Shown here: positions 14,443 through 17,105 of the stretch, piece by piece
How the letters are laid out: the number at the start of each line of letters is the position of its first letter
How positions within the stretch are numbered: the first letter of the stretch is position 1
Source of the DNA: an uncultured Kordiimonas sp.
GTDB lineage: Bacteria; Pseudomonadota; Alphaproteobacteria; Sphingomonadales; Kordiimonadaceae
DNA length: 64,000 nucleotides
Direction: 5' to 3'
NCBI GenBank assembly: GCA_947492375.1
Contig: CANLMI010000002.1
Coordinates: forward strand, 62,001-126,000
Program-made: the position numbers and the translations under genes
Notes under the pieces: generated by a model
Told to the model about the DNA's origin: nothing
The model's database searches: none
The model's input: the letters and a program-made list of their open reading frames with translations, nothing else

Positions 14443-15441
14443 TTACCTTGCAGACACGATCATATCGAGCGACTGATCAATTTCGTAGCTTGCCATTATA
14501 ACGGTTTGCACGGAGCGTAAAAAGAAATCCTGAGGTATTGTATCAAAATCATCCGTTGGTTGATGATAATAGGGATGGTCCTCAACACCAAAATAGACGA
14601 ACGGTATACCTGCTTGATAAAATGGCCCGTGATCCGACTGTAATGTCCAGTCATTCACCCCCAGCGAAGGGTCATCATGTCCCATCGATAATGTTACGGG
14701 AACCAATGGTATCAAGCTAGTTATAACCGGCTTCAAATTTGGTGTGTGATATGCACCGGCTGCGTATAATTCATTTTTGTCTGAACGGCTCAGCATATCA
14801 AAATTAATATTAAAATCAGCCTTCGTTGACTGAGCATCATACTCTTTGATCAGCGCACGGGCGCCGTGCAGCCCCATTTCTTCTGCGTCAAGAAAGGCAA
14901 ACACAATATCATTAGCAGGTGGGTTATGCTGAAACGCCTCAATAACAGCCAGCAAGCCAACCACACCAGATGCATTATCATCTGCGCCGTTATAAACCTT
15001 CCCGCTGCGTACACCAACATGATCATAATGCGCAGATATGACAATTAATTTACGGTCATTTTCAGGCTTTGTACCCGATATTGTGGCGAGTATATTAACG
15101 CCAGTCATCGGTATCTCTTCTTCATCGCTGATATTATTCAGAAAATCAAAAGAATGTTCATAACGGCCATTTAAAGGAGCAGCATCAAGGGTCTTAAGCC
15201 GATTGATAATATAAGCCCTAGCCTTTGCATTTCCGTCAGTTCCAGTTCGACGGCCTGCCATTTCATCCGCGGACAATGTTTTCAAGGCTGATAAAATAAA
15301 TGTATCATCATAGGATAACTGAACAGAACTAGCTAAGGGTTGTTTATAAATAACCTTAGCTTGAATTTCTTCATGATTACTGCACGCAGCAATCAAAGCA
15401 AGCATGAATAATACTATAATACTAACCTTAGTTTTCACCAT
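14443..15441 (-). CDS. M28 family metallopeptidase, probable lipoprotein
   Basis: 332 aa; lipobox-like LALIAAC; VISAHYDHVG, NGADDNASGVVGLLAV, FLDAEEMGLHGA zinc peptidase motifs. Confidence 0.9.
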   Translation of the reverse strand: MVKTKVSIIVLFMLALIAACSNHEEIQAKVIYKQPLASSVQLSYDDTFILSALKTLSADEMAGRRTGTDGNAKARAYIINRLKTLDAAPLNGRYEHSFDFLNNISDEEEIPMTGVNILATISGTKPENDRKLIVISAHYDHVGVRSGKVYNGADDNASGVVGLLAVIEAFQHNPPANDIVFAFLDAEEMGLHGARALIKEYDAQSTKADFNINFDMLSRSDKNELYAAGAYHTPNLKPVITSLIPLVPVTLSMGHDDPSLGVNDWTLQSDHGPFYQAGIPFVYFGVEDHPYYHQPTDDFDTIPQDFFLRSVQTVIMASYEIDQSLDMIVSAR

Positions 15442-15710
15442 AATAATACATCAACGTTCACATCTAGCACATAAGTATATGTGTGTACAAAGCTCTTCAA
15501 AAAATACAACTTATAAAAAATTCAATATAGTTCAGTATATCTAGTTTTATGTAAGTCCATGTAATTATGATTTAAAATCATCTAGATACCGTATAAGTAA
15601 AATAAAACACATACCGGCTTTAAAATTTTCAATATTTTTAATACTTGAAATTGTATTTAAATCCTGAAAGTATAATTTACTCTACTAAATTTTATAATTG
15701 GAGGAATTTG

Positions 15711-15869
15711 ATGAATAAAATGAATAGAACAGAACCCCGCAAAAGTATGCTCGCAAAGATCGCAACAGAGTTAACTGATCAAGAAATCAAATCTGTAACA
15801 GGAGCTGGATGTACACTACCCAGTCACAGCTTCGTTCCAGACGAAGATTACTGCCCGAACGATAACTAA
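15711..15869 (+). CDS. Putative ATP-grasp RiPP (graspetide-like) precursor peptide, 52 aa
   Basis: MNKMNRTEPRKSMLAKIATELTDQEIKSVTGAGCTLPSHSFVPDEDYCPNDN; ATG at 15711 preceded by GGAGG at 15700-15704 (supplied ORF start 15645 lacks this); next to an ATP-grasp ligase. Confidence 0.75.
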   Translation: MNKMNRTEPRKSMLAKIATELTDQEIKSVTGAGCTLPSHSFVPDEDYCPNDN

Positions 15870-15880
15870 GTCATAAATTG

Positions 15881-15908
15881 GCTTTGCACATCAAACGGTG
15901 TGCAAAGC
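15881..15908 (+). terminator. Hairpin between RiPP precursor and ATP-grasp gene (attenuator or terminator)
   Basis: Perfect 10-bp inverted repeat GCTTTGCACA-tcaaacgg-TGTGCAAAGC followed by TTTATT. Confidence 0.75.
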
Positions 15909-15937
15909 TTTATTAAAACACAGTAAATAAACAAACC

Positions 15938-17047
15938 ATGCAAATCATAATCGTCACCGCACCAGCCGACATCGATGCAATCAGCATAGAAATACAGCTA
16001 CGAAATAAAGGTATTGATGCTCATAGAATTTTCTTTTCAGAGCTCGGGCACACTCAAAGATTAAGTTTTACACTTCCAAAGAAAAAACTCTCACTCACTA
16101 CCGCTGAAAATAAACAAATACATATAGAGCCTGATATTATATGGATGCGAAGGCCTCGCCCGCCTAATCCAAACAGTAATCTTAACGCTCAAGATGCTGC
16201 TGCAGTACACGCAGAAAACGTCAATGCAGCCCACGCAATACTTCAAAGCTTGTCGAAAACAACACGTTTTATCAATACCATACCAGGCAGAGATCAGGCA
16301 CGTTCAAAAACTTTACAATTAGAATATGCGAGTGAATTAAACTTTGCTATTCCGGACACGCTAGTGACCAATTGTAAAGATCATATAATTAACTTTATCA
16401 AACGTGATCAAGTGCCGGTAATAATGAAGACATTTGCACCGATACGATATTATGAAAACAAGCGAGTTAAACCTGTATATGCAACCATTATTACCGAAGA
16501 AAATTTGGACGAAGAACCAGAACTTTTGGATCAAGTTTCTATTTTTCAAAAAGCCATCCCTAAAGCATACGAAATAAGAGCTCTATTTTTAGGTAACTAT
16601 AGTATAGCCGTAAAGTTAGACACACAGTCCCATGCAATGGGTAAAGTTGATTCGAGAAGAGCAATGGCCGTTGAAAATGAACTCGATGGTCAATTAATTG
16701 AGCTTCCTGGTATATTAAAAAATCAATGTATCCAGCTCATGAAAAAAATGGGCTTGGTTACCGCTTCATTTGATTTAATCGTCACGCCCAATAATGAATA
16801 CATTTTCCTGGAACTCAACGAAACTGGCCAATGTATATTTCTTGAACAGTATAGAAACGTTCCCAACATTTTGGAAGCATACTGTGAGTTTCTAATTCAC
16901 CAAGGAAACGCTTTCAAATTTATGCCTATTATAGATCCTTTAGCACCAACTGGATTAAGTTTAGTAGAGCCAGCAAGAAAAATCGCAAAGCAGGAAATGG
17001 AAAACTATACATCTAGAGCAAGCCACGTTAATGCTGTCAGATTATAA
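15938..17047 (+). CDS. MvdD/MdnC-like ATP-grasp peptide ligase (RiPP maturase)
   Basis: 369 aa; N-terminal pre-ATP-grasp region, DIIWMRRPRPP, VIMKTFAP, IRALFLGNYSIAVKLD, FDLIVTPNNEYIFLELNETGQCIFLEQ characteristic of microviridin-type ATP-grasp ligases. Confidence 0.85.
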   Translation: MQIIIVTAPADIDAISIEIQLRNKGIDAHRIFFSELGHTQRLSFTLPKKKLSLTTAENKQIHIEPDIIWMRRPRPPNPNSNLNAQDAAAVHAENVNAAHAILQSLSKTTRFINTIPGRDQARSKTLQLEYASELNFAIPDTLVTNCKDHIINFIKRDQVPVIMKTFAPIRYYENKRVKPVYATIITEENLDEEPELLDQVSIFQKAIPKAYEIRALFLGNYSIAVKLDTQSHAMGKVDSRRAMAVENELDGQLIELPGILKNQCIQLMKKMGLVTASFDLIVTPNNEYIFLELNETGQCIFLEQYRNVPNILEAYCEFLIHQGNAFKFMPIIDPLAPTGLSLVEPARKIAKQEMENYTSRASHVNAVRL

Positions 17048-17073: not shown

Positions 17074-17105
17074 AAAACCCCCGAAGAATACTCTTCGAGG
17101 GTTTT
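17074..17105. terminator. Terminator between convergent ATP-grasp gene and groEL
   Basis: AAAACCCCCGAAG-aatact-CTTCGAGGGTTTT, near-perfect stem with flanking A/T runs. Confidence 0.85.

Follow-up and report, generated by a model that had tools for sequence, protein, structure and literature searches.

Graspetides are omega-ester/amide RiPPs whose products hold ester or amide links between side chains; they are recognised by an ATP-grasp ligase of the MvdC/MvdD family, by a core peptide carrying Ser, Thr or Lys donors together with Asp or Glu acceptors, and by an adjacent short precursor whose leader is common to other such precursors. According to PMC13097080, it is established for graspetide synthetases that an acyl phosphate is formed on Asp or Glu and then attacked by Thr or Ser hydroxyls, and graspetides fall into 24 plus 19 groups. 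The survey in PMC8939145 counts 174 families, describes conserved Cys in many of the new precursors, and places a Phhx(1,2)h leader motif in about half of graspetide precursors without requiring it of the class. The microviridins (MdnA/MdnB/MdnC; graspetide group 1) resemble the locus described here in the sequence family and fold of the ligase, in the pairing of a precursor with an ATP-grasp gene and, loosely, in a short hydrophobic-basic leader stretch (MLAKIA here versus PFFARFL). In contrast to the microviridins, however, our locus has one ligase instead of two, a GA-type cleavage site, and a core with two Cys but no Lys; its ligase is only about 24% identical in structural alignment. Neither of the features that mark the microviridin subgroup, the TxKxPSD core and the PFFARFL leader, is present in the window sequence, and the first-pass annotation had been right to note that the TxKxPSD motif is missing.

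The window, a stretch of 64,000 nucleotides from an uncultured Kordiimonas sp., contains on its plus strand a 52-amino-acid ORF (positions 15711–15869) encoding the leader MNKMNRTEPRKSMLAKIATELTDQEIKSVTGA followed by the core GCTLPSHSFVPDEDYCPNDN. A strong Shine-Dalgarno sequence, GGAGG (15700–15704), stands ahead of the ORF with the ATG 6 nt further on, and 68 bp separate the ORF from a 369-amino-acid MdnC/MvdD-like ATP-grasp ligase gene (15938–17047, plus strand), all as originally described. We read this arrangement, with a probability of roughly 82%, as a stand-alone two-gene graspetide cassette with a singleton core, in which the leader would dock on the ligase, ester rings would form in the core, and a C39 transporter would provide cleavage and export in trans.

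Among NCBIfam models, the ligase matched TIGR04187 (1.1e-43), TIGR04185 (MvdC; 1.9e-43) and MvdD (8.4e-37); since each NCBIfam model has a curated cut-off that its score fails to reach, it is assigned at the family level and not at the equivalog level. Pfam gave no match for the ligase. An alignment of 46 ligase relatives has 12 invariant positions, all 12 of which are kept in the window ligase (including K124, Q127, K164, Q204, R214, D238, D279, E292 and N294). The usual D-W-R, with Trp in 39 of the 46 relatives, reads D-S-R in the window ligase, and this Ser at position 239 could mean an altered ligase activity. Compared with the PDB, the profile of the same alignment matched AMdnB (7.8e-85) and MdnC (2.2e-83), and further MdnB, CdnC, the MvdD-like ligase PruB and PsnB, with RimK far behind. 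The AlphaFold2 model of the ligase (pLDDT 90.7, pTM 0.90) returned MdnC with its bound precursor MdnA and CdnC as the best Foldseek hits, MdnC first. Thus family models, PDB profile, predicted fold and conserved residues all place the enzyme in the MvdC/MvdD family. An enzyme of the RimK type, adding amino acids to a peptide C terminus or to side chains without macrocyclisation, would belong to the same superfamily, and RimK structures do occur lower in the fold list; however, the RimK model TIGR00768 reached only 5.9e-8, graspetide maturase models and the MdnC and PsnB structures score much better, and the precursor has a RiPP leader with ordered donors and acceptors, so that we regard such a function as very improbable. 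A quick tree put the ligase of the window on a long and deep branch that falls outside both the Legionellales and the beta/alphaproteobacterial clades, a placement that is unsure because of the branch length. Close homologues were absent from the family, order and class samples and from the genome contigs and plasmids, the best being about 35% identical, and the ligase family is patchy (3/30 genomes in the family and 4/401 in the order sample).

Neither NCBIfam nor Pfam had a match for the precursor. It was assessed with a leader HMM of 26 columns built from 24 precursors adjoining other ligases, drawn from small ORFs upstream of ligases in relatives with the window ORF left out. When every window ORF of at least 25 amino acids (n = 761) was scanned with this HMM, the proposed precursor ranked first with an E value of 0.0015, the runner-up having 2.7, which argues that its identification as a precursor reflects more than chance. 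The match pairs KIATELTDQEIKSVTGA of the window with qlAReLtaeEleeVSGG of the HMM. The HMM matched upstream ORFs on the sense strand at 63 of 85 ligase loci and on the antisense strand at none, a count that is partly circular because training members are included; likewise, the match of a precursor profile in the whole genome (E 1.3e-12) comes from a profile of which the window sequence is itself part. The Phhx(1,2)h motif is absent from the window leader, in which the sole Pro precedes RK.

Alignment to other leaders places a double-glycine-type site at GA (VTGA/GCTLP, that is, SVTGA/GCTLPSHSFVPDEDYCPNDN), so that the predicted leader extends over 15711–15806 and the core (15807–15866) is probably 20 amino acids long with Gly first. 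This cleavage site lies one residue earlier than that of the first-pass annotation. Conservation of the precursor beside homologous ligases, which had been set in advance as a test, gave a divided answer: it is confined to the leader, and the core has no recognisable homologue, so that conservation gives no guide to its functional residues. The core offers T35, S38 and S40 (precursor numbering) as candidate donors, followed by D44, E45 and D46, with another D near the end, as candidate acceptors. All three T/S precede all D/E, an order found in 2.8% of shuffles in a post hoc test.

Two Cys, C34 and C48 of the precursor, flank this donor and acceptor stretch, and Cys-rich cores occur in several alpha- and betaproteobacterial relatives (L025, L091, L093 and L095). 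It is conceivable, but in our view unlikely, that a Cys serves as donor in a macrothiolactone, or that a disulfide between the two is the main constraint alongside fewer ester rings. Thioesters are known as non-native products of graspetide synthetases (PMC13097080, PMC12291112), but a native thioester graspetide is not reported in the cited graspetide papers as far as these were covered, T and S donors are present in the core, and a single Cys in L001, a precursor-ligase pair of the same genome, indicates that paired Cys are not required in the family. The Cys pair alone is also not distinctive because, according to PMC8939145, Cys is common in graspetide cores.

The gap between the two genes of the proposed cassette contains a 13-pair hairpin (15880–15909, plus strand); the 80-nt region around it folds at -20.9 kcal/mol (z -4.36), and no known RNA element in the gap scored above the Rfam gathering scores. 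Stems of at least 9 bp were present in 30 of 48 comparable gaps of relatives, where an approximate dinucleotide shuffle would lead one to expect 3.9. This excess is indicative only, because the gap limits were set automatically, the relatives share ancestry and do not count as independent, and it was the hairpin of the window itself that suggested the test. The hairpin sequences are unrelated among relatives (e.g. L040, L059, L095, L091 and L037). A likely role is that of an attenuator or mRNA stabiliser favouring the precursor over the ligase.

The surroundings of the cassette point to an insertion. In the sister species G001, a histidine kinase, a response regulator, an M28 peptidase gene and groEL follow in the same order, the gap between M28 and groEL is 183 bp, and the cassette is absent; in the window the spacing is 1692 bp. 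The terminator of the convergent groEL gene (17074–17105), aligned to G001, G009 and G011, is common to the occupied and the empty site and forms the right side of the insertion. M28 and groEL adjoin in the same way in a dozen other genomes of the family, and Kordiimonas-like genomes likewise have the empty site. Because the two genes adjoin in the sister species and the terminator is shared, the cassette is a two-gene insertion or, less simply, has been lost repeatedly, and the two-gene unit was probably acquired. No direct repeats of the kind left by transposon ends flank it. The M28 peptidase (14443–15441), which belongs to the core genome, was considered as leader protease of the cassette and ruled out, since it adjoins groEL in cassette-free genomes.

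Unlike many related loci, the cassette has no transporter or protease gene. Three C39 peptidase-ABC transporters are encoded elsewhere in the genome, at C2:257303, C4:44126 and C5:24541, one of them directly before the precursor-ligase pair on C4. The genome has four ligases: that of the window, one at C1:211184 beside a precursor with the core IRAPGCSIGTSTITGEISIEPDGSINGSDGGPD, one at C4:46867 whose precursor has FFSQGCGSCSPGFSWVSDPCPQCPGGEQGYCGDTC as its core, and a fourth at C3:128750 that is truncated; the two additional precursor-ligase pairs (L001 and L017) have different cores. In the locus of the fourth ligase (L010, G000:C3:128750–129430), the ligase is truncated at its N terminus, no precursor was seen, and an ABC transporter adjoins on the other strand; L010 is possibly a remnant. 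One could suppose the same of the window cassette, namely that it is a decaying orphan and that modification and export of its peptide have ceased, given the missing dedicated transporter, the state of L010 and the Ser for Trp at position 239. Both ORFs are intact, however, with a strong Shine-Dalgarno sequence before the precursor, all invariant ligase residues are kept and the gap hairpin is intact, and we consider decay quite unlikely.

Two further sets of small peptides were seen in this genome. A small double-glycine peptide containing NNVEIEEVSGGCAGTFPPGDGAGASSNCGTSHV is encoded with HlyD on one side and a C39 peptidase transporter on the other (L103, 1936–2184, minus strand; G000:C2 at about 257.8 kb). 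Five tandem ORFs of 42–47 amino acids, whose leaders are short and of the double-glycine kind (e.g. MKKIQNLTDKEIIAISGG) and whose cores are for the most part rich in Pro and contain Lys, lie between RecO-like and parC-like genes (G000:C1 at about 474900–476500; L122, 720–1617), with no ATP-grasp gene in the 3 kb seen around them.

Equivalent gene pairs occur in other proteobacteria. The Legionellales and other proteobacterial graspetide-like loci (leader RVLAY.LA.E....EL..VSGG) share with the window the leader type, a precursor directly upstream and a frequent gap hairpin, whereas their cores are Thr-rich with regular Asp spacing (T..T...TG..D..YDV..DW) and many of them include genes for a HEAT-repeat protein, for HlyD and for a C39 transporter, none of which is present in the window locus. 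L022–L083, mostly from Legionella and other Legionellales, form a large graspetide-like family, often with two to three precursors per ligase. In 48 of these loci the ligase is directly followed by a conserved protein of ~356 amino acids, which could be a partner protein; the two examples that were checked have HEAT repeats. The leader closest to that of the window belongs to alpha- and betaproteobacterial Cys-rich loci (Nitrosomonas, Bradyrhizobium, Azospirillum and Massilia; RILAR.LA..LT.EEI..VAGG; KIAHELTSEEIKKIAGG compared with KIATELTDQEIKSVTGA); their cores are likewise short and acidic with Cys, but the core residues are not alignable and the ligases are at most about 35% identical. Overall, ligase family and fold, leader homology and the equivalent pairs in this genome and other proteobacteria bear out a graspetide-type locus.

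We propose that the short ORF is translated to the precursor, whose leader segment MLAKIATELTDQEIKSVTGA would dock on the ligase. The ligase would then phosphorylate side-chain carboxylates of Asp and Glu in the PDED region of the core, and the Thr and Ser hydroxyls of the TLPSHS region, guided onto the activated carboxylates, may close up to three ester rings, each with a loss of 18 Da. Meanwhile, the gap hairpin would probably hold ligase expression below that of the precursor. One of the three C39 peptidase-ABC transporters could cut after GA and export the product in trans, after which a disulfide between the two Cys may enclose the ring segment.

The suggestion of a new graspetide class was too strong; at most, the locus may plausibly represent a new group within graspetides. 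Legionella is not mentioned in the main text of PMC8939145 and PMC13097080, nor Kordiimonas in that of PMC13097080. More tentative, and on balance doubtful, is a group defined by a deep-branching ligase, a compact multicycle in a 20-amino-acid core (T-x2-S-x-S / D-E-D) bracketed by a native disulfide, and a mobile two-gene cassette borrowing a host C39 transporter. The precursor-ligase pair is very small and easily expressed, and its core is unlike those beside any related ligase examined. The source lineage has few graspetides; if the rings form, the locus would add a topology, and its ligase could be put to use in cyclising peptides. The hairpin that recurs between the precursor and ligase genes of the family offers a testable expression device.
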